A program made the translations under genes and the position numbers. Shown here one piece after another: positions 2,445 through 42,523 of a DNA stretch of 64,000 nucleotides (positions are counted from its first letter, which is position 1; every line of letters starts with the position of its first letter). Under the pieces are notes generated by a model. The model ran no database searches, had not been told where the DNA came from, and was given only the letters and a program-made list of their open reading frames with translations. The DNA is from Chryseobacterium scophthalmum (GTDB taxonomy: Bacteria; Bacteroidota; Bacteroidia; Flavobacteriales; Weeksellaceae), in contig NZ_FSRQ01000001.1 of assembly GCF_900143185.1 (NCBI RefSeq), positions 434,001 through 498,000 of the forward strand. The letters are read 5' to 3'.

Positions 2445-2543
2445 GACTTTTCGAAATTAAATTAGAATTTATTTGAATAAATATGAAACCATAACTTACT
2501 GAAATAGGAGGTGAATAATCTTTTATTCATTAATAGTTTAAAA

Positions 2544-2590
2544 AAAGGAAGCAAATACGTGATATTGCTTCCTTTCAGTTTTTGATTATT
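2544..2590. terminator. Bidirectional intrinsic terminator between convergent genes
   Basis: An 11-bp perfect inverted repeat (AAAGGAAGCAA at 2544-2554, TTGCTTCCTTT at 2565-2575) is flanked by an A-run on the left and a T-rich stretch on the right. It can terminate transcription both ways: the nitrilase gene from the left, and the cupin/Dabb/porin group ending at 2645 from the right. Confidence 0.8.
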
Positions 2591-2644
2591 TAAAACCTTA
2601 AGTGTAAAATAACTTAAAGTTCCTATAAGAATCCTCTCAATATA

Positions 2645-3133: not shown

Positions 3134-3149
3134 TTTAAATATAACTTTT

Positions 3150-3569: not shown

Positions 3570-3579
3570 TATATTTTAT

Positions 3580-4908
3580 TTAGTTAAAATCAATTCGGTA
3601 TTTTAAGACAAATTGCCATTGTCGGTCAGAAACCACCGCATTATTGCTTGGGTCTCCTGTAAAAACCGGTCTGTTTTGAGCATCGAAGGTCAATCTGGAA
3701 GACATTCCGTTCATTAGCAGAGAAATTCCGGCATCATAAATCACTGCGTTATCGTGAAGTCCTTTCAAATTTGATAACTGCATTCCGACTGCGGGCTGAA
3801 GCTGAAGATTTTTCTTCTCTTTATTAAGATAGGGTAGTGTTCCTCCCAACTGAACATAGTACGTATTTCCGGTTCCGATGACGGGCATTGCATTTCCTGC
3901 ACCATTTAAACTTGCCTGAGTAATATCTACTGAAGTTGCAGGATTATTGGTTCCTACATAACGAACATAATTGGGACCGTAATCATTGTGCATTGCCATT
4001 CCGTATGCACTTACCGAAGTTCCTTTTTCTTTGTTTAAAGGCGCATCGTAAAATAGATCTACTGCAAAGCTTTTCATATCATCATTGATGGTATTTTTAT
4101 TAATATCCTGGTGCCACATTGCATCATGAATATAGTCGAAACCTGCTCCCAGACTCAGTACATTTTTCTTCCCAACATATGTTCCCGAATTAAAGGGTGT
4201 TGAAATATTTTCTTTATCTAAAAATGCATATCTGAAATATCCTGAGAAGTCTTTATTAGGAGAATTTTTACTAAAAGAGGCTAAATTTACTTTTGGATCA
4301 GAAGTAGACATCGTGTAAGGATCTGCAACAACCAAACGGTAATCAAACTTCCCTAACTGACCTTTGATGTATGCTCCCAATTCTCTTACCGTATAATCTG
4401 TAGCGCCCGCATTGGATGTTGCATAAGCCGGTAAATCATACAATAAAGTATTCAAAGGGCCGGTTGAAAATCTTGATAAACCTCTCCAAGTAGAGCGTCC
4501 TGCACCAAAAGCAATTTTATCATTAAATGAGTATTCTGCGTAAGCATCCAAAAGATCAAAATAATTACTGGCTTTAGCATTCATATTGACATTGGTCGTT
4601 CCACCCTGCAAAACAAACATCAGTTTTTCTGTAGGTTTATAGGTCATTTTTACACGAACTCTTCGCAATGATAAGTCTGAAACTTCTGACTTCGCTTCGT
4701 TATTGATTAAACTTCCCGGATTAAGCTGTGCATATCTAGCCCATAATTCTGCGTATCCGCTGAAGGAAATGTATCGGGAATGATCGTCATTAAGGTAATG
4801 TGTAAGGACTGGATTATTAAAATCATTTTTTTTCTGCGCTTCTACTTTTGAGAACACATTCACTACTGAAACTAAAATGAATGCGACTTTCAAATATTTT
4901 TTGTTCAT
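3580..4908 (-). CDS. Outer-membrane porin-like beta-barrel protein (porin O/P type)
   Basis: A 442-residue protein with a signal peptide ('MNKKYLKVAFILVSVVNVFS...EAQ'). Many alternating aromatic/polar strands follow, and the end 'RQWQFVLKYRIDFN' is typical of an outer-membrane insertion signal. The N-terminal portion ('SLRRVRVKMTYKPTEKLMFV') resembles the OprO/OprP-like porins of Bacteroidetes. It is the first gene of a group with the Dabb and cupin genes. A two-component system starts 244 bp away in the opposite direction and is a plausible regulator. The transported solute is unknown. Confidence 0.75.
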   Translation of the reverse strand: MNKKYLKVAFILVSVVNVFSKVEAQKKNDFNNPVLTHYLNDDHSRYISFSGYAELWARYAQLNPGSLINNEAKSEVSDLSLRRVRVKMTYKPTEKLMFVLQGGTTNVNMNAKASNYFDLLDAYAEYSFNDKIAFGAGRSTWRGLSRFSTGPLNTLLYDLPAYATSNAGATDYTVRELGAYIKGQLGKFDYRLVVADPYTMSTSDPKVNLASFSKNSPNKDFSGYFRYAFLDKENISTPFNSGTYVGKKNVLSLGAGFDYIHDAMWHQDINKNTINDDMKSFAVDLFYDAPLNKEKGTSVSAYGMAMHNDYGPNYVRYVGTNNPATSVDITQASLNGAGNAMPVIGTGNTYYVQLGGTLPYLNKEKKNLQLQPAVGMQLSNLKGLHDNAVIYDAGISLLMNGMSSRLTFDAQNRPVFTGDPSNNAVVSDRQWQFVLKYRIDFN

Positions 4909-4951
4909 ACTATTTATTCTTTTCCTATTCTGTTTGTTGATTTCAACGGGA

Positions 4952-4959
4952 CAAAATTA
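4952..4959 (-). promoter_or_regulatory. Candidate Bacteroidetes -7 element for the porin group
   Basis: On the reverse strand this reads TAATTTTG, matching the Bacteroidetes sigma-A -7 consensus TAnnTTTG, 44 bp upstream of the porin start. I see no TTTG -33 box at the usual 19-21 bp spacing, so the promoter may be weak or activator-dependent. Confidence 0.4.
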
Positions 4960-5056
4960 GGCTCGAAAAACAAGGAACATCGTTAGAAAACTATTAGAAA
5001 ATCTTTAGAAATTCATTAAAAAAATGAATCATTTACCTTAAAATAAAAATATACAA

Positions 5057-5064
5057 TACCTTTG
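5057..5064 (+). promoter_or_regulatory. Candidate -7 element for the two-component operon
   Basis: TACCTTTG fits the Bacteroidetes TAnnTTTG consensus and lies 88 bp upstream of the response-regulator start. No clear TTTG -33 partner is visible. Confidence 0.4.
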
Positions 5065-5152
5065 TATAGGTTTAAAAGAACAGTTGATAGTCAATTTATT
5101 TGCTTGTCTTTTAAGCATAAAATTTTGCTTTTTATTCTAAATAATTCTTTGC

Positions 5153-5842
5153 ATGAAAATTTTAATCATAGAAGATAATCTCCGTGTTTCGAGCCTTATG
5201 AAAAGAGGATTGGAAAGTCAGGGTTATGAAATTTACATCTCTGAAGATGCAGAAGATGCCTTAGTACTTGTAGAAAGAATTGATTTTGATTTAATTATTA
5301 CTGATATTATGCTTCCGCAGATGAATGGTATTGAACTAAGCAAACTGATCAAGCAAAAACACCCAGATCTTCCCATAATTATGTTGACTGCATTGGGAAC
5401 AATCGATGAAAAGATTGAAGGTTTTGATGCGGGAGCCGATGATTATATGGTAAAACCTTTTGAAATAAGAGAATTATATGCAAGAATAAAAGCTATTTTG
5501 CTAAGGAAGCCTATTGCCCATTCGAAAAAAGAAGAATCAAATATTTTGGAATATCAGGATCTCACGATTAATAAAAATACAAATCGTGTCTTTAGAAATG
5601 GTACCGAAATAGATTTGACTCCAAAAGAATTTAAATTGCTTTCTTTCCTGATGAGCAATACAGAACGGATATTAACCCGGGAAGAAATTGCCGAAAATGT
5701 CTGGGGCAATCACTTTGATACCGGAACCAATTATATTGACGTTTATATTGCGTATCTCAGAAAAAAAATAGATAAGAATTTTGATGAAAAACTGATTCAC
5801 ACCAAATCCGGAGTAGGATTTATCTTTACAAAACTCGCATGA
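5153..5842 (+). CDS. OmpR/PhoB-family response regulator
   Basis: 229 residues. The receiver domain (1-120) has the acidic pair 'IIEDN' near the start, the phospho-acceptor Asp51 in 'DLIITDIMLPQMNG', the Thr in 'LTALG' and the Lys in 'MVKPFE'. The winged-helix DNA-binding domain (about 130-228) contains 'LTPKEFKLLSFLMSNTERI' and 'YIDVYIAYLRKKID', typical of OmpR. Its stop codon overlaps the start of the histidine kinase gene, so the two are translationally coupled. The divergent porin group is the obvious candidate target, but no binding site was identified. Confidence 0.93.
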   Translation: MKILIIEDNLRVSSLMKRGLESQGYEIYISEDAEDALVLVERIDFDLIITDIMLPQMNGIELSKLIKQKHPDLPIIMLTALGTIDEKIEGFDAGADDYMVKPFEIRELYARIKAILLRKPIAHSKKEESNILEYQDLTINKNTNRVFRNGTEIDLTPKEFKLLSFLMSNTERILTREEIAENVWGNHFDTGTNYIDVYIAYLRKKIDKNFDEKLIHTKSGVGFIFTKLA

Positions 5843-7215
5843 AAATAGTAACCAGAACTGCGCTCAGCTACGCCATCCTAACTGCAGGAATTCTATTTGT
5901 TTTTGCATATGTTTTGTATTATGTTTCTGAGAAAAACAGAGAAGATGAATTTAATGACCGTTTAGGATATAAAATCATCTGGAGATCTGAGTTTATTTTT
6001 GATGCAAAAATTGACAATGCAAAAATCAAAGAACTTCATTTACGAAATAAAAAAATCCTGAACGAAGCTGATATCAGCGTTTATAATGATAAAAAAGAAC
6101 TTCTTTTTACAGATATTTCACCGTCATCACAGAATCAAAAGTATTTAGATCAATTAATTAAGAGTAAGAAGAACAGGATTACCTGGCTGAGAAGAGACCG
6201 CCAATATATGGCGATAAAATACGAATTTGATGGTGTCAATTATTACATTATAGGAAGTGCCATAGACGTTACAGGAAGAGCTCATGTAGCTGAATTTAAA
6301 AAAGATATCATCGTTATTTACTTTATCTCGATCATTATCATCTTTATTATCGGCTTTATGTTTTCATATTATACTTTGAAGCCGTTAAAAGATATTATCA
6401 TTCAAATCCGGGATATTTCGGAACATAATCTTCATAAAAGACTCGTTATTCCTAAAGCGAAAGATGAAATTTATGAACTGACAGAAACTTTTAATTCAAC
6501 TTTCAACCGATTAGAAAAATCATTTAACAATCATAAACAGTTTGTAACCAAAATTTCCCATGAATTCAGAACACCTCTTTCAACTTTGATTGCAGAGCTC
6601 GAACTGGCGAAAGAATTAAATACAACTTTGGATGATTACAAAATTTCTGTTGATAATGCGTTGCAGGATGCTAATCACGCTTCACAGCTTTCATCGGCAC
6701 TTTTAGATTTTGCACGGGCAAGTTATGATATTTCACAAATTAGCTTTAGTGATCTTCGTTTAGATGAGGTTTTAGCCGACGCGAAAGTGGCTTTACTGCA
6801 AAAAAATTCAAAGTATAGAGTAGGAATTCATTACATGGATAACATGGCGGATCAGGATGAAAGCAACTATGATTTTCACGGAAACCCATATCTTTTACAG
6901 ATAGCTTTTCTCAATCTGATGGAAAATGCCTGTAAATATTCAGAAGATCAGCAGTGTCGTGTGGAAATTGAAATTCAGAATAAAAATATTGAAATTAGAT
7001 TTATCGATAACGGGATAGGGATTTCAGAGGCAGATCAACTGAAAATATTCGATCTCTTTTACCGTGGAAATAATAAGAGTTATAACTCAGGAAATGGTAT
7101 TGGTTTATCTATCGTTACAAGAATCATCGAAATTCATCAAGGTCTTTTGGAAGTTGAATCTAAACTTTTAGAAGGAAGCGTTTTTAAAGTGAAATTACCT
7201 ACATTGAAATCTTGA
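5839..7215 (+). CDS. Membrane sensor histidine kinase
   Basis: 458 residues. TM1 is at about 8-30, a periplasmic sensor region at about 31-155 and TM2 at about 158-180; HAMP linker ('TLKPLKDIIIQIRDISEHNL') follows. The HisKA domain carries the phospho-accepting His241 in 'ISHEFRTPLSTL'. The HATPase domain has the N box ('NLMENACKYS'), G1 ('DNGIGIS') and G2 ('GNGIGLSI'). It would phosphorylate the response regulator encoded just upstream, with which it overlaps by 4 bp. The periplasmic region is too generic to name a ligand. Confidence 0.93.
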   Translation: MKIVTRTALSYAILTAGILFVFAYVLYYVSEKNREDEFNDRLGYKIIWRSEFIFDAKIDNAKIKELHLRNKKILNEADISVYNDKKELLFTDISPSSQNQKYLDQLIKSKKNRITWLRRDRQYMAIKYEFDGVNYYIIGSAIDVTGRAHVAEFKKDIIVIYFISIIIIFIIGFMFSYYTLKPLKDIIIQIRDISEHNLHKRLVIPKAKDEIYELTETFNSTFNRLEKSFNNHKQFVTKISHEFRTPLSTLIAELELAKELNTTLDDYKISVDNALQDANHASQLSSALLDFARASYDISQISFSDLRLDEVLADAKVALLQKNSKYRVGIHYMDNMADQDESNYDFHGNPYLLQIAFLNLMENACKYSEDQQCRVEIEIQNKNIEIRFIDNGIGISEADQLKIFDLFYRGNNKSYNSGNGIGLSIVTRIIEIHQGLLEVESKLLEGSVFKVKLPTLKS

Positions 7216-8492: not shown

Positions 8493-10424
8493 ATGAATAT
8501 TAGTGCTATTAAAACTCCCGGAGTATATATCAATGAAATTGATGCATTTCCTCCATCTATTGCTCAAGTTGCTACTGCCATTCCTGCATTTGTAGGATAC
8601 ACCCAAAAAGCAACTTCTTTGAATGTTCCTACTCGAATTTCTTCTTTAATGGAATACGAGCAGTTTTTTGGCGGAGCTCCTTCTCCTTCAAGTATTTCGG
8701 TAGATTTAGATAGTAATCTTGTTCCTTTGGATACTTCTTCTGTTACAGAAAGCCAATTCAAACTTTACAACAGTATGCGTTTGTTTTATGCCAACGGAGG
8801 TGGTGAATGCTATATTGTTTCTATCGGGCTTTACACAAGTAATCCTGCTTTTGATTCCGGAACGAGAGATGAATTTACTAAAGGAATTGATAAACTGGAA
8901 AAATATGATGAACCAACATTAATATTATTTCCAGATGCGGTTAATCTATCAGCAGCTAATTTAGGAGCAGTACAGGTACATTCGTTAATGCAGTGTCAGA
9001 AACTGATGGACAGATTCACCATTATGGACGTAAAACAAGCGGAGAACTTAATTGATGACAGTGAAAATTTCAGAGACGAAATAGGAAATCAGAACCTGAA
9101 ATACGGTGCAGCTTATTACCCTTATTTACAGGCTAATTTTCCTTATCGGTTTAGGTTTAATGATATAAACGGAATAGGTTCGGGAAAAGTAGATTTTGCT
9201 GCGATATATACAACAGATTTAAAAATAAAACCTTTGTTGGATAATTTTGATATTACCTATAAAAAAGTATATCAAAATACGGCTCCGAAAGGATTTTCTA
9301 CAGAATGGAATAGCCTGGATAAAAGCAAAAATTCTATTAATACTCTTGCCGATACTCAAGATTATGTTGACAAATTGTGGAGCTATCTGAAAGTTCTTGG
9401 ACAGACTACAACTTTAGCCAATCCGTTTAAAACGTATGTACAAAGTCTTATTCCGGTTTCTTTGAAACAATATGCTCAAAAACTGGTTGACTTTAAAGAT
9501 ATCTATGACGATTTGCAAATTGCAGGAGCTGATCCGGAAGTAGATCCACCTGTTAATTTAGCTGATTTAGATTCAAATCCTGATGCAGATTTTGATGATA
9601 CAATCTGGAGAAACGGAGCTTTTACAACTTCAGGAACAAATCCTTATGACGGAGCATTAATTACTGGCGGTTTAGCCGATACAGCAAAAATTCAGGCGGC
9701 TTTAGATAAGTTAAATTCACAAATTATTTCTGCAATAAGTTCCGCAATGAGCGCATTGGAAAATTATGTAATGGAAGAAGAAAATAATTTGATTTCTAAC
9801 ATTCCGCTTTTCTCAATTATTGTTTCAAAACTTTCTCAATCAATGAATACGGTTCCGCCTTCAGGAGCTATTGCTGGAATTTATGCCCAGACTGATGCCA
9901 CAAGAGGAGTTTGGAAAGCTCCGGCAAATGTAAGTGTAAACTCAATAATCGGATTAACGGATGATATCAATGATAATGATCAAGAGAATATGAATATCCA
10001 CGAAACAGGAAAATCCATCAATGCAATCCGAAAATTTACGGGAAGAGGAAATCTTGTCTGGGGTGCGAGAACATTAGCAGGAAATAGCAATGACTGGCGA
10101 TATGTCAACGTAAGAAGATTAGCCAATATGATCGAAGAATCTGTGAAAAAAGCTTGTATGCAGTTCGTATTTGAACCCAATGTTGCCCAAACATGGGTCA
10201 ATGTAAAAGGAATGATAGAAAACTATTTAACAACCCTTTGGAATGACGGTGCTTTGGCAGGAGCAAAACCTGAACACGCATTTTTTGTAGCAGTCGGATT
10301 AAACCAAACTATGTCTGCACAGGATATTCTTGAAGGAAGAATGATTGTAAAAATAGGGTATGCTCCTTCAAGACCTGCAGAATTTATTATTTTGGAATTC
10401 AAACAAATGCAGCAAAAATCTTAA
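8493..10424 (+). CDS. Contractile sheath protein (phage tail sheath family)
   Basis: 643 residues. The N-terminus 'IKTPGVYINEIDAFPPSIAQ' followed by 'VATAIPAFVGYT' is the signature of contractile sheath subunits. The C-terminal domain has 'GRGNLVWGARTLAGNSNDWR', 'YVNVRRLANMIEESV' and 'FVFEPNVAQTW', the handshake-forming core. Sheath subunits polymerise around the tube and contract to drive it outward. Pvc sheaths are about 350-480 residues, so this one has an extra middle part (about residues 220-470) rich in acidic and helical sequence that probably lies on the outer surface. Only one sheath gene is present, unlike the several paralogues of Pvc/Afp. Confidence 0.95.
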   Translation: MNISAIKTPGVYINEIDAFPPSIAQVATAIPAFVGYTQKATSLNVPTRISSLMEYEQFFGGAPSPSSISVDLDSNLVPLDTSSVTESQFKLYNSMRLFYANGGGECYIVSIGLYTSNPAFDSGTRDEFTKGIDKLEKYDEPTLILFPDAVNLSAANLGAVQVHSLMQCQKLMDRFTIMDVKQAENLIDDSENFRDEIGNQNLKYGAAYYPYLQANFPYRFRFNDINGIGSGKVDFAAIYTTDLKIKPLLDNFDITYKKVYQNTAPKGFSTEWNSLDKSKNSINTLADTQDYVDKLWSYLKVLGQTTTLANPFKTYVQSLIPVSLKQYAQKLVDFKDIYDDLQIAGADPEVDPPVNLADLDSNPDADFDDTIWRNGAFTTSGTNPYDGALITGGLADTAKIQAALDKLNSQIISAISSAMSALENYVMEEENNLISNIPLFSIIVSKLSQSMNTVPPSGAIAGIYAQTDATRGVWKAPANVSVNSIIGLTDDINDNDQENMNIHETGKSINAIRKFTGRGNLVWGARTLAGNSNDWRYVNVRRLANMIEESVKKACMQFVFEPNVAQTWVNVKGMIENYLTTLWNDGALAGAKPEHAFFVAVGLNQTMSAQDILEGRMIVKIGYAPSRPAEFIILEFKQMQQKS

Positions 10425-30443: not shown

Positions 30444-31736
<1,293 letters not shown>

Positions 31737-32024: not shown

Positions 32025-33032
32025 ATGAAAAAGGCATCCATTAAAGATATTGCTAGAATTGCAGGAGTTTCCGTAGCAACAGTTTCTTATGTTCTGAACA
32101 AAAAAGAAGGACAGAGAATCAGTGAAGATACCAAAAAAAAAATTTTTGAAATTGCTGAAACGATTAACTATACGCCAAACAGAATGGCAAAAAGTCTTAA
32201 AAATAACAGAACAAAATTATTAGGTCTTATAGTTGCCGATATCTCCAACGACTTTTACTCGAGCATAGCAAGAAATCTTGAAGATAAAGCCTTAAAATTA
32301 GGATACACTTTAATTATTGGAAGCTCAGATGAAAATGCCGAAAAGTTTGAAAAACTAATTGATCTTTTTTCTCAACAACAGGTAGATGGAATGATTGTCG
32401 CTCCAGTTGTAGGTTCTGAAGGTGCTCTTTCGAAGTTGATTAATAAAAATTATCCTGTAGTTACGATTGATAGATATCTGAAAGGAATAAATATTCCAGG
32501 CGTTATTTTGAATAACAAGGAAATTGCCGAAACTACAACATCCTATCTTTTAGAAAAAAATTTTGACGAAATAATTTATATAGGTTATGATACCAAATTA
32601 CCCCATCTTTTAGACAGAAAATTGGGTTTTGATACAAGTCTTGCAGATTCTGGAAAAAATATTGTTAAAAAAAATATTCTTGTAGGCCTCGAAAATATTA
32701 CAGAAGAAATTCAGACCAAACTTGAGCAAGCTTTAGGTAAAAAACCAAAGAATATTGTGCTTTATTTTTCGAGTAACAAACTTGCAGTCGCTGGTCTTGC
32801 TTACCTTGTTAGGAATAATATTAATGTTCCGGAACAGGTTTCTGTACTGGCTTTTGATGAGACAGAAGCATATAAATTATTTCCTGCAGATATTACTTAT
32901 GTACAGCAACCCTTAGAGGAAATGGCAGATGAAACAATTAAATTACTTGATTTACAAATAAATCAATATTCAACTACAGCCAAAAAAATAACACTATCAG
33001 GAAATTTAATTATTAAAAATTCAATAAAATAA
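32025..33032 (+). CDS. LacI family transcriptional regulator
   Basis: 335 residues. The N-terminal LacI helix-turn-helix is 'SIKDIARIAGVSVATVSYVL' with hinge 'NRMAKSLKNNRTKLLGLIV'. The periplasmic-binding-protein-like sensor domain fills the rest ('DISNDFYSSIARNLEDKA', 'QQQVDGMIVAP', 'VSVLAFDETEAYKLF'). It should bind a sugar or sugar phosphate and control the operon that follows. Two palindromic sites with central CG flank it, one upstream and one in the 36-bp gap before the kinase gene, suggesting autoregulation and control of the operon. Confidence 0.93.
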   Translation: MKKASIKDIARIAGVSVATVSYVLNKKEGQRISEDTKKKIFEIAETINYTPNRMAKSLKNNRTKLLGLIVADISNDFYSSIARNLEDKALKLGYTLIIGSSDENAEKFEKLIDLFSQQQVDGMIVAPVVGSEGALSKLINKNYPVVTIDRYLKGINIPGVILNNKEIAETTTSYLLEKNFDEIIYIGYDTKLPHLLDRKLGFDTSLADSGKNIVKKNILVGLENITEEIQTKLEQALGKKPKNIVLYFSSNKLAVAGLAYLVRNNINVPEQVSVLAFDETEAYKLFPADITYVQQPLEEMADETIKLLDLQINQYSTTAKKITLSGNLIIKNSIK

Positions 33033-33049
33033 TTTTTTTATCAATTAAC

Positions 33050-33061
33050 TTAAACGTTTAA
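33050..33061. promoter_or_regulatory. LacI-type operator in the regulator-kinase gap
   Basis: TTAAACGTTTAA is a perfect 12-bp palindrome with central CG, ending 7 bp before the kinase start codon. It matches the upstream site at 31801-31812 at 11 of 12 positions including a shared AAC on the left. The position would let the regulator block transcription into the kinase and transport genes or mask the leader. Confidence 0.7.
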
Positions 33062-33068
33062 TCTAAAT

Positions 33069-33980
33069 ATGAATAATAATAAATCTTACACCGTTTGTTT
33101 CGGAGAAGTTCTCTGGGATATTTTTCCAGCCGGATCTAGAGCTGGTGGTGCGCCTTTCAATGTTGCATATAATCTTGATAAAATGGGAGTAGAGGTTCGG
33201 ATGATCAGCAAGATCGGAAAAGATAAACTTGGAAATGAACTTCTGAATAAAATTAAAAGTTGGGATATCTCTACAGATTATGTTCAGATTGATGAAGAAA
33301 AACCAACTGGAACTGTCATTGCGAATTTCGATCAACACGGTGAAGCACATTATGATATCGTTGAGAATGTAGCTTGGGATTATATCCAGATTACTCCGGA
33401 GCATAAAAAGTTGATAAAGAATTCTGAAGCCTTTGTTTTTGGAAGTCTGATTGCCAGAAATGAAGAATCTAGAAACACTCTTCTAGCGTTGATAGAGTTT
33501 TCAAAATTTAGAGTGTTTGATGTGAATTTCCGTCCACCGTTCATTGATTTTGAATTAATTAAAATATTGCTTCACAAAGCACATTTAGTAAAGATGAACA
33601 AAGCAGAATTAAGAACGATAATCGAGTTTCTTGATGAAGAATATATTGACGAAGATAATAGTATTAGGCATATTCAAAATTATTTTGATCTGAATGAGAT
33701 TGTCCTTACCAAAGGGAGCAAAGGTGCAAGATATTTTGTAGGAAACGAAAACTATACTTTCTCTGCAGTTTCAATAGAAATTACAGACACTGTGGGTAGT
33801 GGAGATTCTTTTCTTGCCGGTTTTTTATCTAAGAGAATTAAAGGCAGAAGTCCTCAGGAAATAATGAAACAGGCGGTTTCTTTAGGAGCTTTTATTACTT
33901 CAAAATCAGGTGCTTGTCCGGATTATTCCTATGAAGCCTTCAAATCTTTTCGAGAAGAGCATTACAGTCAAACTATTTAA
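33069..33980 (+). CDS. PfkB-family carbohydrate kinase (fructokinase-like)
   Basis: 303 residues. PfkB signature features: 'GEVLWDIFPAGSRAGGAPFN' at the start (substrate-binding GGAP) and 'DTVGSGDSFLAGFL' with the catalytic Asp and anion-hole Gly residues at about 238-251. The GGAPFN pattern and short N-terminus favour fructokinase or a related hexokinase. In this operon it would phosphorylate the sugar imported by the neighbouring MFS protein. It lies 36 bp after the regulator with an operator between and 9 bp before the transporter. Confidence 0.88.
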   Translation: MNNNKSYTVCFGEVLWDIFPAGSRAGGAPFNVAYNLDKMGVEVRMISKIGKDKLGNELLNKIKSWDISTDYVQIDEEKPTGTVIANFDQHGEAHYDIVENVAWDYIQITPEHKKLIKNSEAFVFGSLIARNEESRNTLLALIEFSKFRVFDVNFRPPFIDFELIKILLHKAHLVKMNKAELRTIIEFLDEEYIDEDNSIRHIQNYFDLNEIVLTKGSKGARYFVGNENYTFSAVSIEITDTVGSGDSFLAGFLSKRIKGRSPQEIMKQAVSLGAFITSKSGACPDYSYEAFKSFREEHYSQTI

Positions 33981-33989
33981 ATCAATATT

Positions 33990-35234
33990 ATGAATACTGC
34001 AAAATTTACAGAAAAGAAATATGTTGTTATATTGGCATTCGTTATTTCGTTATTTTTCTTTTGGGCAATTGCTTTGACGATGGGGGATGTATTGAACAAG
34101 CATTTTCAAAATGTCCTCAATATTTCCAAATCAAAATCAGGATTGGTGCAGCTTTCCATCTTCGGAGCTTACGCATTGATGGGAATTCCTGCGGGATATT
34201 TTATGAAAAAATTTGGTTACAAAAAAGGCGTTATTTTAGGATTATCTCTTTTTGCTCTTGGCTCTTTTCTTTTTATTCCTGCTGCTAACCAAATGTCATT
34301 TAATTTTTTCCGAATTGCTCTTTTTGTTTTGGCAATGGGAATGGCCACTTTGGAAACTGTTGCCCATCCTTTTGTAGCTGCATTGGGAAATGAAAAAACA
34401 AGTGACCAAAGGGTAAATTTTGCACAATCTTTTAATGGTTTGGGCGCAATTATAGGCCCGCTTTTAGGAGGTTATTTTATCTTTGGAAAATCAGGATTAG
34501 AAGATAATTCTTTAGATTCTGTAAAAGATCTTTACACTTGGATTGGTGTTGTAATTTTAACAATAACCATTGTTTTTTCATTTATTAAAGTTCCAAGCTT
34601 GAAAGACCCTCATGCAGAAGATATTCAGGTTTTAGAAAATGAAAATGGAGTAGAATCTTCGGTTTCAGATCCTCACGCACCACTTTACAGACAGAGACAT
34701 TTTATTTTTGCTGTTGTAGCTCAGTTTTTCAACATTGCTGCACAGGGCGGAACCTGGGCGTATTTCATCAATTACGGAGTAGAAAAAATGCACCTTCCGG
34801 AGATTCAAGCGTCCTATTATTTTTCATTAAGTATGGCAATGATGATGATCGGTCGTTTTGTAGGAACTTTCCTTATGAAGTTTATCGCTCCTAATAAGCT
34901 TTTGGCAATCTTCACAGGGTGTAATATTGTACTTTGTTTGGTTATTTCCCAAAGTTTTGGCTGGGCATCTTTTATCAGTTTGATATTATTAAACCTATTC
35001 TTAAGTGTAATGTATCCGACTATTTTCAGTCTTGGGTTGAAGAGATTAGGCAACAAAGTTCCACAGGCTTCTTCATTCCTGGTAATGGCGATGTTTGGTG
35101 GTGCCGTTTTTCCTCCTTTAATGGGAAAAATTGCCGAGAAAGATATTGCACACGCTTACCTTCTTCCAATCGTTTGTTATTTTGTGATTCTGTTATTTGC
35201 TTTGAAATTTTATAAGCCAAAGACACTTAAATAA
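33990..35234 (+). CDS. Sugar MFS transporter (FucP-like)
   Basis: 414 residues with about 12 hydrophobic helices. 'FFFWAIALTMGDVLNKHFQN' in the first helix region, 'GAYALMGIPAGYFMKKFGYK' and 'QSFNGLGAIIGPLLGGYFIF' are typical of the FucP/sugar:proton symporter group of the major facilitator superfamily. It imports a hexose across the inner membrane. It follows the kinase by 9 bp; the outer-membrane protein begins 1 bp after its stop, so translation is coupled. The sugar could be fructose, fitting the kinase, but the sequence alone does not prove it. Confidence 0.88.
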   Translation: MNTAKFTEKKYVVILAFVISLFFFWAIALTMGDVLNKHFQNVLNISKSKSGLVQLSIFGAYALMGIPAGYFMKKFGYKKGVILGLSLFALGSFLFIPAANQMSFNFFRIALFVLAMGMATLETVAHPFVAALGNEKTSDQRVNFAQSFNGLGAIIGPLLGGYFIFGKSGLEDNSLDSVKDLYTWIGVVILTITIVFSFIKVPSLKDPHAEDIQVLENENGVESSVSDPHAPLYRQRHFIFAVVAQFFNIAAQGGTWAYFINYGVEKMHLPEIQASYYFSLSMAMMMIGRFVGTFLMKFIAPNKLLAIFTGCNIVLCLVISQSFGWASFISLILLNLFLSVMYPTIFSLGLKRLGNKVPQASSFLVMAMFGGAVFPPLMGKIAEKDIAHAYLLPIVCYFVILLFALKFYKPKTLK

Positions 35235-35235
35235 G

Positions 35236-36648
35236 ATGAAGAACTTTAATGTTTTTAAATGCAGCTTTTGGTTTATTTTCATCATTAGCCAGGTTTTTCA
35301 CGCACAAATTGTGATCACCAACAAAGATTTTTCATTCGGAACAACAGGAAGAATTGGAGCAGGATATTCTCCAAATGCTGATGGAAAAACAGGTAGACAA
35401 CTGAATCTTAATAATCAGGGTTCACTTGGAGGAAGAATGGATCAAGGCGATTATGTAGATTTTTTGCCCGCTTTTCATTTCACTCCCATTGTAAATGGCG
35501 ACAGTGTAAAAACTACGAAAATCGATATGCAGACGAGACTGAGTTTCTATTCTGGTGGAACTTTTCTTGGAAATGTAGATTCAAAATCAAATCAGGGAAT
35601 GATCATTGCGTTGCCTGAAGCTTTTGTGGAAGCAAGAAATATTTTGGGAAGCGATTGGGATGTTTGGGCCGGATCACGATGGCTGAGATATGACGATATT
35701 CATATTGCGGATTATTTTTACTTTGATGATCATTCTGCGACAGGATGGGGTTTGAGACATAAAAACACCAGATTCTCAATGTTTTTTCCGGCAGCGATTG
35801 ATACTGCAGCAAGTAATTCTACACCATATTCTTACACAAATGTCATTAGTGGAACAAAAAATCTGATCTACAGACAACGGGAAGTTTTTATATTGGAACA
35901 GATTATTCCATTCAAAAATAATATTCATAAACTGAAACTTCTTGCCGAATTTCATAACGTAGAAAAATCGGGTGAAAATTCTATGGAGCAATATCCGTCA
36001 GACAATGGATGGGTTGTAGGTGCAAAACTGAATACCAATTTAAAAACAAAAATTGCAGGTTCTTTTAACCAAATATCGATAAGATACGGAAACGGAATCG
36101 CCAACGGAGGTGACAGCGGAAACACCCAAACCTGGCGAACTTATGGTGCTCCGGACGAAATTACTAAAACCTACAAAGGTGCTTATTCTTTGACGGCGGT
36201 TGAGCATATTTTACTCAATATTTCCAATAAATGGTCAGCTAATGCTTATGCTGTTTTTACGATGAGTAAAGGAGGTTCGGACAGTAATAATAAAGCAATT
36301 GATTATTATAAACGAGAAATTTTCAATAAGAAATCTGAATTCAATACAGGTCTTAGAGCGACTTATTATGTTAACAACTGGTTTCATATTCTATCAGAAT
36401 TACATTTTGCTACGAGAAAAGACGGCAATCAAAACTCAGCTTCGATGACGAAATTAGTTTTGGCACCAACGATTGTTCCGACAGCAGAAAGAAGTGTTTG
36501 GGCAAGGCCGAATATTCGTTTTATTGCAGAAGTTTCAAGATATAATAATCAGGCAATGAACAGTCTGTATTCACCATTTTTACAACAATCTGGTTCTAAA
36601 AGATTCGGAACTTACCTTGGTGTGAGAACAGAATGGTGGATTTTCTAA
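35236..36648 (+). CDS. Outer-membrane beta-barrel protein of the sugar operon (porin-like)
   Basis: 470 residues with signal peptide 'CSFWFIFIISQVFHAQ'. A barrel-like alternation of aromatic and polar residues follows throughout, and the end 'FGTYLGVRTEWWIF' has an aromatic C-terminal residue suited to the Bam machinery. It resembles LamB/OprB-type carbohydrate porins of Bacteroidetes in size and in the segment 'DWDVWAGSRWLRYDDIHIAD'. Its place between sugar importer and epimerase suggests it admits the same sugar across the outer membrane. Confidence 0.75.
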   Translation: MKNFNVFKCSFWFIFIISQVFHAQIVITNKDFSFGTTGRIGAGYSPNADGKTGRQLNLNNQGSLGGRMDQGDYVDFLPAFHFTPIVNGDSVKTTKIDMQTRLSFYSGGTFLGNVDSKSNQGMIIALPEAFVEARNILGSDWDVWAGSRWLRYDDIHIADYFYFDDHSATGWGLRHKNTRFSMFFPAAIDTAASNSTPYSYTNVISGTKNLIYRQREVFILEQIIPFKNNIHKLKLLAEFHNVEKSGENSMEQYPSDNGWVVGAKLNTNLKTKIAGSFNQISIRYGNGIANGGDSGNTQTWRTYGAPDEITKTYKGAYSLTAVEHILLNISNKWSANAYAVFTMSKGGSDSNNKAIDYYKREIFNKKSEFNTGLRATYYVNNWFHILSELHFATRKDGNQNSASMTKLVLAPTIVPTAERSVWARPNIRFIAEVSRYNNQAMNSLYSPFLQQSGSKRFGTYLGVRTEWWIF

Positions 36649-36669
36649 TTAAAATTTAAAATAACAAAA

Positions 36670-37503
36670 ATGAAAGTAAAATTTGGAGCGTCACTTCTTT
36701 CCTGGATCACACCAATATGGAATCCTGAAGCCGGAAAATATGCAATAGAAAAAACGGCAAAGGCGGGTTTTGATTTAATAGAAATTTTATTGCCAAGTTC
36801 AATGGATTTTAATTCAAAAGAAGTAAAACAGCAGTTGAAAGATAATAATTTGGATGTTGTCTGTTCTTTAAACCTTCCAAAAGAAGCGCATATTCCTTTT
36901 TATCCCGAAGTTGCAGAAAAGTTGATAAAACGGGCAATTGACAAAACTTCAGAACTGGAAACTGATTTTTTAGGCGGTGTTCTTCACGGTGGAATCGGAG
37001 TTTTTTCCGGAAATCCTTTAACGGAAAATGAATCTGAAATTATTGTTGAAGTTTGGAACAAAGTAGCAGATTATGCTAAAGAAAAAGGTGTGAATATCGG
37101 AATCGAACCAATCAACCGCTATGAATCGTATGTTTGTAATACTGCGGAAAATGTTTTGGATTTAATAAAAAAAACAGACAAAGATAATTTGGTTCTTCAT
37201 CTTGATACATTTCACATGAACATTGAGGAAAATAATTTTTACGATCCAATTATTCTTGCAGGAAATAAGCTTAAGCACGTTCACATCACAGAATCTCACC
37301 GCGGAATGTTGGGTGAAGGAACGGTGAATTGGAACGAACTTTTCAGAGCTTTAAAAGAAATCGATTTTGAAGGAAATCTTGTCTTGGAGAATTTTTCATC
37401 ATCAATTCCCGGAATGCAGCAGATGGTTTCACTTTGGCAAAAATCGCCTTATGATGCCGATCAGCTGGCTGATGGAAGTTTACAATTTCTGAAAATTATG
37501 TAA
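36670..37503 (+). CDS. Sugar phosphate isomerase/epimerase (D-tagatose 3-epimerase-like TIM barrel)
   Basis: 277 residues. Metal and catalytic residues of the ketose 3-epimerase family are visible: Glu in 'NIGIEPINRYE', Asp in 'LHLDTFHMNIEE', His in 'KHVHITESHRGMLGEG' and Glu in 'GNLVLENF'. Family members interconvert ketohexoses at C3 (psicose, tagatose, fructose) with a divalent metal. In this operon it would turn a rarer ketose into one the PfkB kinase can use, so the operon may serve use of a ketose such as psicose. It is the last gene, 22 bp after the outer-membrane protein. Confidence 0.88.
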   Translation: MKVKFGASLLSWITPIWNPEAGKYAIEKTAKAGFDLIEILLPSSMDFNSKEVKQQLKDNNLDVVCSLNLPKEAHIPFYPEVAEKLIKRAIDKTSELETDFLGGVLHGGIGVFSGNPLTENESEIIVEVWNKVADYAKEKGVNIGIEPINRYESYVCNTAENVLDLIKKTDKDNLVLHLDTFHMNIEENNFYDPIILAGNKLKHVHITESHRGMLGEGTVNWNELFRALKEIDFEGNLVLENFSSSIPGMQQMVSLWQKSPYDADQLADGSLQFLKIM

Positions 37504-37548: not shown

Positions 37549-38055
37549 TCAATTTCCAAAATTAGTATTATTATGTACGGTTAAATAACCATTGGCCTGA
37601 TTTAATTGAAGCTGTCTGATTTCCTGATTTAGCCACCTGTATATTGCCTCATAATCAGTATCATTTTTGGCATGGGAGAATCTCAATTTAGCTTCATTAA
37701 TCAAGTACTTGCACTCAATTCTTGCCTGCTCTCTTAGTTCTTCCTTCTTCTTATATCCTTTCTGATTCAGATAAATCAGTAAAAAAGAAGAAACCAAAGG
37801 AAGAATAAAAGTTAAAATTTTGATTACAATAACAAAACTATAGCACATTGGAAGCATCTCTTTTATTCCAATTAAAATAGTTGTTAAAAACCCTGTAATT
37901 GTTATCCAGATAAAGAAAAGGTTATTGATTTTTTCATACTTATCAGATTCATCTGAATATGATAAGTAGTATTTATCATTAATGTGATTAATGAATGATT
38001 CAGTCGAAGATTTTGGATTTTCCGTCGACCAGTTATGATTATTTATTGACTCCAT
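37549..38055 (-). CDS. Two-TM SLATT-like membrane protein (third gene of the CHAT operon)
   Basis: 168 residues. Two adjacent hydrophobic helices (about 46-66 and 73-95: 'LFFIWITITGFLTTILIGIK' and 'VIKILTFILPLVSSFLLIYL') separated by a short loop are followed by a charged helix with 'KYLINEAKLRFSHAKNDTDY' and 'YRWLNQEIRQLQLNQ'. This is the layout of SLATT/DUF4231-type proteins, which in bacterial conflict systems are thought to act as membrane-disrupting effectors. It is encoded after the CHAT protease and the amidohydrolase, separated from them by a hairpin. The call rests on topology and length, not on a strong sequence signature. Confidence 0.55.
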   Translation of the reverse strand: MESINNHNWSTENPKSSTESFINHINDKYYLSYSDESDKYEKINNLFFIWITITGFLTTILIGIKEMLPMCYSFVIVIKILTFILPLVSSFLLIYLNQKGYKKKEELREQARIECKYLINEAKLRFSHAKNDTDYEAIYRWLNQEIRQLQLNQANGYLTVHNNTNFGN

Positions 38056-38075
38056 AGGATTTTTTTTATAATTAA

Positions 38076-38109
38076 AGCCTGCGATAACTTCTCAAAATTA
38101 TCACAGGCT
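38076..38109 (-). terminator. Hairpin between the amidohydrolase and SLATT-like genes
   Basis: AGCCTGTGATAA and TTATCGCAGGCT form a 12-bp stem (one G-U pair) with a 10-base loop in the reverse-strand transcript. The downstream sequence is TTTAATTAT and then an A-run, a weak U-tract. It may be a partial terminator or mRNA-processing hairpin lowering expression of the last gene. Confidence 0.5.
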
Positions 38110-38115
38110 ATAAGC

Positions 38116-39414
38116 TTATCCAAAAAGATATTTCTTAGGATTATCTACTGTCAAAAGCTCACTCAATTTTAAGGCTGAAAAATTATCATCCATAATGGTT
38201 AAAAATTCTCTTTGTTCTTTTAAAAGATCTCCTTCTTTACTGACTACCCAATAATCAGTTCCGAAAAGTGTACGTTCACGAATCTTCTTTTCTGCGGTAA
38301 GAACTTCTCTTAAGCTTTTAGATAGATCTGTCTCAATCAGATTGTAAGAAAAATCTGCAAAAACATTTTCATACTTCTCCATAAAGTCAAAAATAGTTTC
38401 TTTTCTGGCCTGTCCGTTATGGGTAACTTTAGAAGGCTTGCTCCATGTTTCATAACCTCCGAAATGAGCAAGGTTCAGTTTTAATTTTGGAAATTTTTCC
38501 AATACCAAAGTCCATCTTTTGGGATCATTTAATGAATAGCCGACTTCTGTTCTGTTCTTTTTAGAATGCGAAACTTTTTTATCGCCCTCATATATTACTA
38601 AATCATTTGTTATATCGGTAGTTATCGATTCTCCGCCACAATGAGAAAGCACGGGAATTTTATATTTTTCACAAACCTCATAAATTGGCCACAATCTGTA
38701 ATCTGAAGGATCATATCCTAATGCAGGATAGATTTTTACCCCAAAGAAGGGGCTGTCTTTAGAAAAAGCAAGATTAAAAAGAGAGTAGAGATTTTCTTTA
38801 TCAGATTCAAGATCTGCACGTCTGGGATCACATACAAAAAATGGTAAAACCGGGTGTTTATCTCTAAGTGCTTTAAGCTCAATTATCTGATCATATAAAC
38901 TTTTTTTAAGTTTTACATTCCAACCCGTTTCCAGATCCATCATCAGAGCCGTGACAATTACTTTTTTATTTTCCGTTACTTTTGATAGGGAAAAGTTTTC
39001 GAGGTAATAATCATAGACTTCTTCCATTGTTTTGAATCCCAGAAACTTTCTGGCTTTGTAGATATCAATAATCCCTTTTGTATTTTGTGTTTGCATTAAA
39101 GCGGGATTTTCTCTCAGCTTTTCTTCTAATTCATCTTCCCAGTTTTCGTCGTTCTCATCAATCTCATTATATGCTTGTTCAATAGACAGATCCGAATAGG
39201 TTTCTGAACCTGATTTCAACCCTACTAAATCTTTTAGCATTCTGATGATAAAATAGGATTTATTAATACATTTTATATCAAACAAATGGGCGTGAACATC
39301 TATACAAAAATCTCCGTTCAGGATGTCTTTTACTTTGCCTGATGCTCGGTCTAATGGATTATCGGTAAGGTGATTCAAATTAACTTTTTCTGAAAATTGT
39401 GTTTGGTAATTCAT
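38116..39414 (-). CDS. Metal-dependent amidohydrolase (second gene of the CHAT operon)
   Basis: 432 residues. The HxH metal site is 'CIDVHAHLFDI' (His41, His43); further ligand motifs are 'KIPVLSHCGG', 'LKLNLAHFGGYETW' and 'TLFGTDYWV' with the terminal Asp. This fits the amidohydrolase_2 (TIM-barrel hydrolase) family. The enzyme is longer than usual by an insert around residues 60-150 rich in acidic residues. It starts 11 bp after the CHAT gene and is clearly co-transcribed with it. The substrate is unknown; in this company it may make or destroy a signal or a cell metabolite. Confidence 0.8.
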   Translation of the reverse strand: MNYQTQFSEKVNLNHLTDNPLDRASGKVKDILNGDFCIDVHAHLFDIKCINKSYFIIRMLKDLVGLKSGSETYSDLSIEQAYNEIDENDENWEDELEEKLRENPALMQTQNTKGIIDIYKARKFLGFKTMEEVYDYYLENFSLSKVTENKKVIVTALMMDLETGWNVKLKKSLYDQIIELKALRDKHPVLPFFVCDPRRADLESDKENLYSLFNLAFSKDSPFFGVKIYPALGYDPSDYRLWPIYEVCEKYKIPVLSHCGGESITTDITNDLVIYEGDKKVSHSKKNRTEVGYSLNDPKRWTLVLEKFPKLKLNLAHFGGYETWSKPSKVTHNGQARKETIFDFMEKYENVFADFSYNLIETDLSKSLREVLTAEKKIRERTLFGTDYWVVSKEGDLLKEQREFLTIMDDNFSALKLSELLTVDNPKKYLFG

Positions 39415-39425
39415 GGTATTAGGTT

Positions 39426-40259
39426 TTAAGTTATTTTATCTGCTTTTAGAAATTTAAATGAAAAACTGTCTTCCAGCCCTTCAAAATTTATTTTTTCCAT
39501 ACTGATTTTATGGGCTTTTTCGTAAACATCACTATTTTCCAAAGAATGGTCGTTGATATATTTGAAGAAGTATTCTGTATATTGGGTTGCCGTTGTTATA
39601 TCTACTTTTGAATTGACACATACAACATTTTTCCCTGCACCGGTTATTAATTCTCCCAGTGTCAAAGATTCACAGGCGCTTAGTACGACGCATTCTGTAT
39701 ATTCGCTTCTTTTGTCGAAAAACTTAACGAATTCTGTATTAAGATATTCTTCACATTTACCTTTTTTATCCAAAAGGTGTAATCCATATTTAGTTCCATG
39801 GCAGGAAATAAATATGATTTCTGGTTTCACCTTGTCCCAATCATCAATAAAGTTTGAAATATCAGGGGTTTTTACACGTTCCAACATCATATATTTGCTG
39901 GTAAGCAGTTTCTCCAGATCAGAAAACTCATTTTCAATATTAATTCTCCCTAAATTTTCACATTCGGAACCCAGATAGAGGATATTTCTGGTCAATAATT
40001 TTTCCACTTCCTCCAAGGCTTTTTTATCATTAGAAACTAATTCCAGAAGATTTTTTAATGAGGTACGTTCTTCATCATTAATAAAGGCCTTATAAACCAA
40101 GGGATCACCTAAATCAAGTTTATTGGCTATGTCGGAAAATCCCCAGTTGTTTTTAGCTGAGTTTAAAATTTTCGGAAAGTTTCTGAGATCGTATTTATTT
40201 CCGGTTGCGGCAAGAAGTTCAGAATTTAGTTTACTGATTTGTTTTTCAATTTTTTTCAT
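39426..40259 (-). CDS. CHAT-domain (caspase-like) cysteine protease with N-terminal domain
   Basis: 277 residues. From about residue 92 the protein follows the CHAT pattern: 'NILYLGSECENLGRINIENE', the 'KPEIIFISCHGTKYGLHL' block with catalytic His154, and 'ECVVLSACESLTLGELI' with catalytic Cys196. CHAT proteases are clan CD peptidases related to caspases and separases, and many serve bacterial defence or cell-death systems. Residues 1-90 are helical and could be an effector-associated (EAD-like) adaptor domain, which I cannot assign to a subtype. It is the first gene of the operon with the amidohydrolase and the two-TM protein. Confidence 0.85.
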   Translation of the reverse strand: MKKIEKQISKLNSELLAATGNKYDLRNFPKILNSAKNNWGFSDIANKLDLGDPLVYKAFINDEERTSLKNLLELVSNDKKALEEVEKLLTRNILYLGSECENLGRINIENEFSDLEKLLTSKYMMLERVKTPDISNFIDDWDKVKPEIIFISCHGTKYGLHLLDKKGKCEEYLNTEFVKFFDKRSEYTECVVLSACESLTLGELITGAGKNVVCVNSKVDITTATQYTEYFFKYINDHSLENSDVYEKAHKISMEKINFEGLEDSFSFKFLKADKIT

Positions 40260-40647: not shown

Positions 40648-41286
40648 TTATGGAAGTGAGGGCGTTGGTGCGCTTCCATTACCTGCTGTGTTACCATTCA
40701 TATCAAAAGTAATTGTTGGGTTTACCGTAGTAAGCATATCTTTTCGGTAAACACTTACACTCAGTCTAATCTCTGGGTTTTGATGGAATACTCTGTTGTT
40801 ATTGGGTACAAATCGTATATGCCATGTTCCGTTAAGCTCAAAAGAACGAGCTGAATATTGAGGAATGTATGGACTTGTTGTTGAGTCTCGTGTGATTCTA
40901 ATGTTAGAATTGTCACTTACCCCTCTTACGATAAATCCACCTATAATCAAATAATATTTACTTGTTGGAATTTTTGTATCAAAATCTGCAATTCCACCGG
41001 GAGTAATGTTGGTAATATGATACACTGTACTATTAATAGCGCTATATTCTGATGTAGCCGGTACATATCTTTTAAGAGCTTTATCGCTGTTGTCTCTTAC
41101 TACTAAATAAGAATTGGTAGATGGACCTGTATACGTTCCTGGATTTTCAAAGTAAAGCTCTTCGCTTAATTTCATATTTCCTGTCACATCCAGAGTTTGT
41201 GTAGGATTGGTATTTCCTATTCCTACACCTTGTGCTTTATAGATTGCTATACTACACAGTACAGCTAAAAATAATATTTTTTTCAT
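40648..41286 (-). CDS. Secreted 'VGIGNTNP'-type protein, paralogue 3 of 3
   Basis: 212 residues: signal peptide ('MKKILFLAVLCSIAIYKAQ'), then 'GVGIGNTNPTQTLDVTGNMK', a start found in many Bacteroidetes surface and fibre-like proteins. The body is beta-rich ('YHITNITPGGIADFDTKIPT'), and the end 'ITFDMNGNTAGNGSAPTPSL' matches the other two paralogues. No enzymatic motif seen. The next paralogue begins 6 bp upstream on the same strand, so the three form an operon. A surface or extracellular structural role is likely but unproven. Confidence 0.65.
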   Translation of the reverse strand: MKKILFLAVLCSIAIYKAQGVGIGNTNPTQTLDVTGNMKLSEELYFENPGTYTGPSTNSYLVVRDNSDKALKRYVPATSEYSAINSTVYHITNITPGGIADFDTKIPTSKYYLIIGGFIVRGVSDNSNIRITRDSTTSPYIPQYSARSFELNGTWHIRFVPNNNRVFHQNPEIRLSVSVYRKDMLTTVNPTITFDMNGNTAGNGSAPTPSLP

Positions 41287-41292
41287 AGCTTT

Positions 41293-41916
41293 TTATATTC
41301 CTGTAGGAGCCGAAGGTGCGGTCCCTGAGTTACTACCATTTAGATTATATGTTATCTCACCCAGATTTTTGAAGAATCTCTTTGAATATAAAATCACATC
41401 AAATTTATAAATATATCTATCATCTGTACTTTGAGTGTTCAATGTAGGGTAGCCTATTTTTACGTGCCAAGTTGTTCCAGATTGGAAAGCATTAAAAACA
41501 AAATGTCCTTTATTACTGTTGCTTGTATAAATGCCATTATTTCCTGGACTGGGAATTGCTTCAAAATTAGCAATTGTAATAAAATATTTGTCTGTTGGGA
41601 TATTAAGATTCAGATCATTAATATCATCTCTATATACATTATTTATAGTATAAGGCTGAATGGTAAGAGGAGTGTAAAGGGTTTCTACAGCCACAATTTT
41701 ACCGTTAACGGTTGCAGATTGTGGATCAGTACCCATTATGGTAAAACCTGAAGGATTGTTGACGTAATCTATTGGATCTATTGTAACAGATGTACCTATA
41801 GCAGCTGCACCTACCACTTCCAATTTTTCTGTTGGAGTAGTAGTTCCTATCCCAACTTGACCTATAGCTTTTGTTGCAAAACAAAAAATGCTCATTAATA
41901 TTAACTTTTTCATCAT
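41293..41916 (-). CDS. Secreted 'VGIGTTTP'-type protein, paralogue 2 of 3
   Basis: 207 residues with signal peptide ('LILMSIFCFATKAIGQ') and 'VGIGTTTPTEKLEVVGAAAI' directly after it. The middle contains 'NLNIPTDKYFITIANFEAIP', equivalent to 'FDTKIPTSKYYLIIGGF' in paralogue 3, and the end 'ITYNLNGSNSGTAPSAPTGI' has the shared N-x-G/S and A-x-P pattern. It therefore shares the same domain order as its neighbours despite low identity. It lies 6 bp from paralogue 3 and 4 bp from paralogue 1. Confidence 0.65.
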   Translation of the reverse strand: MMKKLILMSIFCFATKAIGQVGIGTTTPTEKLEVVGAAAIGTSVTIDPIDYVNNPSGFTIMGTDPQSATVNGKIVAVETLYTPLTIQPYTINNVYRDDINDLNLNIPTDKYFITIANFEAIPSPGNNGIYTSNSNKGHFVFNAFQSGTTWHVKIGYPTLNTQSTDDRYIYKFDVILYSKRFFKNLGEITYNLNGSNSGTAPSAPTGI

Positions 41917-41920
41917 TTTT

Positions 41921-42523
41921 TTATTGAAGGATTGGGTTAGCGTCAGCTCCGGAAGAAGTTGAATTTACATCAAAAGGCCCGCGTTCAGGAAAAATCTTCA
42001 CGTAAGTCTTTGGGTAAATGGCGCAAACGAAAGTCCATGTTCCATTACTGGATGCTGCAACTTCAGAATAATCGGCATACAATATCCATTCGTTGTTAAC
42101 GCTCTTTACGCCGTAAGATGGGATAGCAGTCTCAGCACCAAATACATCTTTGTCAAAATAAGCAGATAATACCATTACAGAATAATCATTTGAATTAATT
42201 TTGGTATTAAACTTTTCAACCCAGTCTAGATATACATTAGTAAGCTTATAAGTGATAATACTTGCAAGACCTGGTGAAGAAGGTTGTGTAGGATCAATCT
42301 TTCTTACGCGGTTATCTACTGTACTTTGATTAAGCAGCAGATAGCGGTCTTTTTCGGTTGATGTGATTTGCGGAACACTTCCGGTGATCAGTTTAGATGA
42401 TTTGTACGAACCGTTTACATCCAGTTTAACTCGGGGTGTCACGGTGTTAATCCCTACCTTGCCTGCTTGGGAAAATAAGAAATTGCCCAGCAATATGCCG
42501 GAACCAATAAATAGCTTTTTCAT
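41921..42523 (-). CDS. Secreted 'VGINTVTP'-type protein, paralogue 1 of 3
   Basis: 200 residues: signal peptide ('KLFIGSGILLGNFLFSQAG'), then 'KVGINTVTPRVKLDVNGSYK', then 'YLLLNQSTVDNRVRKIDPTQ' comparable to the Asn-rich joint of paralogue 3. The core 'YKLTNVYLDWVEKFNTKINS' and the end 'FDVNSTSSGADANPILQ' match the pattern of the other two. First gene of the cluster, with a -7-like element 48 bp upstream. As for the others, only an extracellular or fibre-like role can be suggested. Confidence 0.65.
   Translation of the reverse strand: MKKLFIGSGILLGNFLFSQAGKVGINTVTPRVKLDVNGSYKSSKLITGSVPQITSTEKDRYLLLNQSTVDNRVRKIDPTQPSSPGLASIITYKLTNVYLDWVEKFNTKINSNDYSVMVLSAYFDKDVFGAETAIPSYGVKSVNNEWILYADYSEVAASSNGTWTFVCAIYPKTYVKIFPERGPFDVNSTSSGADANPILQ

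Follow-up and report, generated by a model that had tools for sequence, protein, structure and literature searches.

A CHAT protease and an amidohydrolase as a conserved gene pair in Chryseobacterium scophthalmum: a candidate effector module related to EAD/STAND cell-suicide immunity

In the nucleoside triphosphate (NTP)-dependent conflict systems coupled by EADs, caspase-like and trypsin-like proteases replace one another, and the protease is coupled, in the available text of the defining papers, to another hydrolase, either an alpha/beta-hydrolase or a NucA nuclease (Kaur et al., 2020; 2021; PMC7159879, PMC8195603). For VMAP systems, the text available describes a caspase-superfamily domain that always comes with an adjacent alpha/beta-hydrolase gene (PMC7159879). 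In CARD-NLR systems and LypABC, a helical adaptor domain and a trypsin-like protease go with an NLR-like NTPase and with an effector gene that can be exchanged; as far as the available text goes, their death effectors are gasdermins (one being activated through proteolysis), phospholipases and endonucleases, with no amidohydrolase named (PMC13236601). Here we analyse a stretch of 64,000 nucleotides from Chryseobacterium scophthalmum (contig NZ_FSRQ01000001.1, positions 434,001 to 498,000; below, the window), in which a gene for a CHAT (caspase-like) protease is directly followed by a gene for an amidohydrolase.

The CHAT gene (39426..40259, minus strand, 277 residues) and the amidohydrolase gene (38116..39414, minus strand, 432 residues) are separated by 11 bp. 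After a gap of 60 bp they are followed on the same strand by a gene for a protein with two transmembrane (TM) helices. Strand, spacing, CHAT motifs, HxH signature and TM helices had been described in a first-pass annotation of the window, and all of these could be confirmed. CHAT and amidohydrolase are probably co-expressed, and the pair probably belongs to a variant of bacterial cell-suicide immunity systems; the CHAT protease most likely controls the amidohydrolase, either through limited proteolysis or by keeping it bound in a complex. With slightly more than even confidence, we take the locus to be a two-gene effector module, a protease-gated amidohydrolase that represents a variant of EAD/STAND cell-suicide immunity.

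Recurrence of the pair was analysed by a scan with the hydrolase alignment, using one genome per species. Among the 126 relatives found, the best 80 were kept, open reading frames (ORFs) were called around all 80 loci, and the neighbours were clustered and searched with hidden Markov models (HMMs), that for trypsin being built from four members. The search covered at most five upstream and six downstream genes, and for seven of the 80 loci the available sequence contained no upstream gene. A CHAT homologue is located immediately 5' of the hydrolase gene at seven loci (L002–L006, L008 and L009) in addition to the window. At three others (L011, L012 and L014) this position is occupied by a gene for a trypsin carrying an EAD11 domain. 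In Lutibacter citreus (L013, 6840–9284), EAD11, trypsin and amidohydrolase form one protein of 814 residues. At L010, a trypsin gene is found two genes downstream of the hydrolase on the opposite strand, preceded by a gene for a weak trypsin-HMM protein which looks degenerate by eye. A CHAT, trypsin or EAD match near the hydrolase was thus present at 13 of the 80 loci, the thirteenth being L023, which is cut off upstream. Members of Flavobacteriaceae, Weeksellaceae, Chitinophagaceae and Saprospiraceae carry the pair or its trypsin form, as does one metagenome-assembled genome of Bdellovibrionota, and recurrence across several families supports the pairing of CHAT and amidohydrolase that the earlier annotation had proposed.

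In a maximum-likelihood tree of 72 rows, a 10-row group (support 100/98) comprises the hydrolase of the window, the seven CHAT-linked ones and those of L007 and L010. A separate group (100/99) is formed by the four trypsin-linked hydrolases. Both groups unite, together with L017, at a modest 82/65. Hydrolase loci outside the two groups had no match to the CHAT or trypsin HMM within the genes examined, and the only EAD match there is at L023, which is absent from the tree. The scanned upstream genes of these outer loci were unrelated where matched (NYN-LOTUS, diphthamide synthase, OmdA and others).

The hydrolase of the Bdellovibrionota genome (L005) is 56% identical to that of the window, which is consistent with horizontal transfer, provided that the binning is correct. 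Phage or plasmid carriage of the hydrolase was considered and rejected: among the 59 pattern matches from viral contigs there was no relative of the hydrolase, and a plasmid scan gave four distant matches (23–26% identity), none with 80% query coverage.

Active-site residues are intact in both proteins. The catalytic His-154 and Cys-196 of the CHAT protease are present in all 21 aligned CHAT sequences. Against Pfam PF12770, the window protein reaches 17.1 bits, below the gathering cut-off of 24; 18 of the 21 family members match this model at E<=0.1, with L004, L008 and L009 above the cut-off. The structure model of the window protein has a caspase-like fold, the nearest solved fold being that of SAVED-CHAT (8tl0). 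The CHAT domain is preceded by about 88 helical residues, which do not match EAD11 and of which residues 31–60 are modelled at a predicted local distance difference test (pLDDT) score of about 50. The amidohydrolase scores 60.2 bits on Amidohydro_2 (PF04909, cut-off 26.4) and is a predicted TIM-barrel metal-dependent hydrolase. Its six conserved active-site residues His-41, His-43, Lys-227, His-258, His-317 and Asp-387 (HxH...H...H...D pattern) are kept in all 32 aligned hydrolases; membership in PF04909 defines no substrate. A comparison of the hydrolase profile with the PDB gave one weak relative below E 0.05, the uncharacterised protein 3irs (E 0.0053), while two further matches were disregarded as being at chance level (E about 0.1).

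In several relatives, EAD11 and STAND proteins are encoded near the pair and the protease can be of either type, which supports the conflict-system setting suggested for the pair by the earlier annotation. EAD11 scores above the cut-off in the L005, L008 and L009 CHATs and in all four trypsins (L011–L014). At least one further EAD11 match is found nearby in L005, L008, L009, L011, L012 and L014; the further copies in L008, L009, L011 and L014 fall under the cut-off. Genes of STAND type with a P-loop motif are present in L005, L009, L012, L013 and L014, the Pfam match in L013 being sub-threshold. L005 encodes a NACHT-pentapeptide protein, an EAD11 protein, the EAD11-CHAT and the hydrolase. In L009, the EAD11-CHAT comes after a RAMP-like protein, an EAD11-STAND-pentapeptide protein of 909 residues and a protein with weak EAD11 similarity, in this order, and is followed by the hydrolase and then by a predicted TM protein. 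L012 and L014 both encode an EAD11-trypsin, the hydrolase, an EAD11-matching protein and a STAND-type ATPase, L014 also a protein of 248 residues. L013 resembles these two, with the fusion gene followed by genes for proteins of 244 and 350 residues and a STAND-type ATPase, but its 350-residue protein has no Pfam EAD11 match.

Two further domains were seen at these loci. The RAMP-like protein of L009 (PF03787, sub-threshold) is encoded directly 5' of the EAD11-STAND-pentapeptide protein in the same gene run (2349–6431). The Rossmannoid NARF domain gave sub-threshold matches behind the predicted TM segments of the L009 protein (9345–10145, just sub-threshold) and behind EAD11 in the L005 protein (2349–3050).

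At L023 (1312–6364), the gene for a truncated hydrolase relative is located near those for an FGE-type protein, a Midasin-matching AAA ATPase and an EAD11 protein whose iSTAND match is sub-threshold. Since Midasin is a member of the MoxR clade, L023 resembles the published MoxR-vWA-iSTAND ternary system; a vWA domain was not found at this locus. Apart from this ATPase, no MoxR, vWA or VMAP match occurred among the Pfam-scanned neighbour proteins.

The pair can now be compared with the systems described above. With EAD-coupled systems it has in common the interchange of caspase-like and trypsin-like proteases, the coupling of the protease to another hydrolase and, in relatives, the presence of EAD11 in the protease as well as in other proteins and, at L009, in a STAND-type protein. 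It differs in that the constant partner is a PF04909 enzyme and in that the window's own protease carries no recognised EAD. The window differs from CARD-NLR systems in that its protease is a CHAT and no NLR gene adjoins it; NLR-like STAND proteins are encoded in the relatives L005, L009 and L012–L014. LypABC is reportedly the subject of work by Wein and colleagues from 2025, which we know through its citation in the CARD-NLR paper. The SAVED-CHAT of type III CRISPR systems is distinct: the window CHAT has no Pfam SAVED match and only about 88 N-terminal residues, and its partner gene is a different one. These residues also leave no space for the TPR region of Craspase TPR-CHAT/Csx29, to which the structural match is much weaker than to SAVED-CHAT. 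PADLOC matches to SAVED_CHAT on L008 and to RT-Protease_XI on L013 and L014 were taken as shared protease domains only. The word 'amidohydrolase' occurs zero times in the main text of PMC7159879, PMC8195603 and PMC13236601 (figures and supplements lay outside the check). In the literature searched, from which most subscription papers, bioRxiv preprints, figures and supplements were outside the scope, no paper describing this pair was recognised.

We favour a protease-gated hydrolase because of the fusion protein, the exchange of proteases next to hydrolases that are related to each other, and the STAND and EAD proteins encoded near the pair in some relatives. In these relatives, the STAND/NACHT NTPase would act as a sensor that oligomerises upon sensing an invader. 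Its assembly would allow homotypic contact with an adaptor, this contact would activate the protease, and the protease would switch on the amidohydrolase, possibly by cleaving it. The active enzyme would then remove or produce a small metabolite, so that the infected cell arrests growth or dies, which would amount to an anti-phage role. The variant in the window would rely on a sensor that is encoded in trans or not recognised as such. The first-pass annotation had assigned sensing to the protease itself, for which we found no support; the likely sensor in relatives is the separate STAND NTPase. A more far-reaching version, which we offer tentatively and consider possible at best, describes an inflammasome-like pathway: the amidohydrolase would be an executioner that caspase-like and trypsin-like proteases unlock interchangeably and that stops the cell via a metabolite, and the window would hold a streamlined form that lacks the sensor.

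If gating is correct, one branch of a common superfamily of enzymes has been taken over to serve as the fixed partner of death-pathway proteases that can replace one another, and bacterial caspase/NLR-like immunity gains a new effector chemistry. If the amidohydrolase is indeed the executioner, the cell would be stopped through a small metabolite and not by pores or nucleases. With the minimal pair and the natural fusion of EAD11, trypsin and hydrolase in Lutibacter citreus, the switching of a hydrolase by a protease becomes directly testable with two purified proteins.

A number of results weigh against this assignment. The Pfam scan of the window CHAT gave no EAD apart from a chance-level match to APAF1_C (E 0.12), and no EAD11 was found in the window's own genome at E<=0.001. 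When the long frames of the window were checked for a P-loop motif, no STAND gene adjoined the pair; P-loop-like motifs occur in just two of these frames, starting at 30444 and 33981, the latter (33981–35231) being a transporter-like ORF. Three NACHT matches elsewhere in the genome are all sub-threshold, and the same model also gives matches in all 14 control genomes. An EAD11 or clear STAND partner elsewhere in the genome was therefore rejected. The N-terminal domain of the window CHAT occurs in two of 395 genomes of the phylum (its own included), both times on CHAT genes, which also disposes of a second copy on a sensor. PADLOC gave nothing for the window's proteins. At the loci nearest to the window (L002, L003, L004 and L006), the CHATs have no EAD11, there is no EAD-HMM match nearby, and no typical P-loop gene was found (at L003 the motif matched loosely once; the available sequence of L006 contains a single upstream gene). 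The scanned neighbours of L002 are a transposase, a beta-propeller protein and a TonB receptor. At L007 (219–3127), whose hydrolase belongs to the CHAT-linked group, a FAD-binding/lactone-oxidase-type protein and no protease is encoded about 11 bp 5' of the hydrolase, on a contig of just 3.3 kb. As to the EADs themselves, when 12 EAD11 matches on proteins other than the CHATs were scored singly by Pfam, five were sub-threshold. Copies within a locus are hardly closer to each other than copies from different loci (0.54 BLOSUM per column in 6 pairs vs 0.44 in 49), so that the published EAD rule, by which copies of one locus are more alike, is not clearly borne out. The EAD/STAND link is established for more distant members, not for the window locus or its nearest relatives.

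These results bear on the view that the genes are metabolic or stress genes, the hydrolase being a catabolic enzyme and the protease its regulator, without any immune role. The loci nearest the window do lack EAD11 and STAND genes, the hydrolase family has varied neighbours beyond the protease-linked groups, and by eye the window flanks resemble sugar-catabolism and membrane genes. Against this view stands a sporadic spread: the CHAT was found in one of 197 relatives and the hydrolase (E<=1e-40) in three of 395 genomes of the class, the window's own genome being counted in both cases, and the two-TM gene in one of 173 genomes of the genus, again its own, which holds a single copy each of the CHAT and hydrolase families. 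Protease swapping and the EAD11/STAND partners in relatives also speak against this view, which we regard as rather doubtful.

Alternatively, the hydrolase could be a guard, which restrains the protease or removes a small molecule that activates it, and the toxic effector would be the CHAT protease, alone or together with the two-TM protein. That protease and hydrolase are tightly coupled, at L013 even by fusion, suits a permanent complex no less than a pair of protease and substrate, and an intact hydrolase active site agrees with a guard of this kind. But the unrelated CHAT and trypsin proteases go with related hydrolases, which is easier to understand with the hydrolase as the invariable output, and a specific inhibitor would need to fit two different folds. 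We consider a guard function unlikely.

In the earlier annotation, all three genes acted together, the two-TM protein being a SLATT effector. This protein (37549..38055, minus strand, 168 residues) has its highest 19-residue hydropathy windows at residues 46–64 and 76–94 and is modelled as four long helices, including 14–67 and 72–99. Its score against SLATT_1 (NF033634) is 16.4 bits, far below the curated cut-off of 41. A weak SLATT_1 match is seen in all 13 two-TM relatives (best E 8.6e-5), and Pfam 8xMP is matched by 11 of the 13 homologues (best 6.8e-5), with the window protein far under the cut-off here too. Some unrelated membrane families score about equally, such as DUF2207_C, matched by 10 of 13 (best 8.7e-5). 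The SLATT assignment is therefore not upheld, and the protein is SLATT-like at most.

Strand and the 60-bp spacing would suit a joint action of protease, hydrolase and a SLATT pore-former, as would the relatives closest to the window, the only ones in which a two-TM gene adjoins the hydrolase gene on its 3' side (P0001 with P0134, which includes the window). The second Chryseobacterium record (P0002 and P0136) probably has both genes together, with an equal longest-contig size of 2279820, and the P0146 gene call spans the C-terminus of the hydrolase into the two-TM protein. At L009, a different TM protein, that with the NARF match, is encoded 3' of the hydrolase. However, the HMM and cluster search detected no two-TM homologue near the hydrolase at the 12 other loci with a linked protease, where the sequence available 3' of the hydrolase amounts to just 0.3 kb in L005 and 1.0 kb in L009. 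Equal longest-contig size, a proxy for a common contig but not proof of it, was also compared with 120 listed hydrolase homologues out of 319 (the first 60 by script, the other 60 by eye): agreement was found for two of 14 two-TM homologues as compared with seven of 13 CHAT homologues from the database, the latter figure being an independent sign of the pairing of CHAT and hydrolase.

In addition, the hydrolase and two-TM genes are separated by an intrinsic-terminator-like hairpin (38076..38109, minus strand), which has a 15-pair stem followed by TTAATTATAA, an impure T-tract, with a folding energy of -21.1 kcal/mol and a z-score of -5.66. Three terminator-like sites were observed in the region against 1.4 expected. 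A weak candidate promoter of Bacteroidota type, TTTG-N20-TAATTTTG, is located 5' of the two-TM gene (38093..38124, minus strand). The pattern occurs five times in the window against 6.5 by chance, which is not significant, so that its position alone is suggestive of a promoter. A trio acting together is improbable, and as a conserved unit it was rejected in view of the missing two-TM homologues at the 12 other loci and of the hairpin. Of the combined interpretation in the first-pass annotation, the pair and its conflict context are retained, while the trio and sensing by the protease are not. The two-TM gene is best treated as a loosely associated neighbour whose membership in the module is uncertain; its product may act as an additional membrane effector in the lineage of the window, the link being weak.

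Upstream of the CHAT gene, three tandem proteins of about 200 residues, alike by eye and with signal-like N-termini, are encoded at 40648–42523 of the window, and another terminator-like hairpin is located next to them at 40628–40599. On the other side, the genes at 32025–37503 are convergent with the CHAT, amidohydrolase and two-TM genes and encode, as judged by eye, a LacI-type regulator, a sugar kinase, a transporter, an outer-membrane-like protein and a TIM-barrel isomerase. In the relative G003 (L090), the isomerase gene is followed by another gene, by eye for an Era-type GTPase, and the place is not conserved there.

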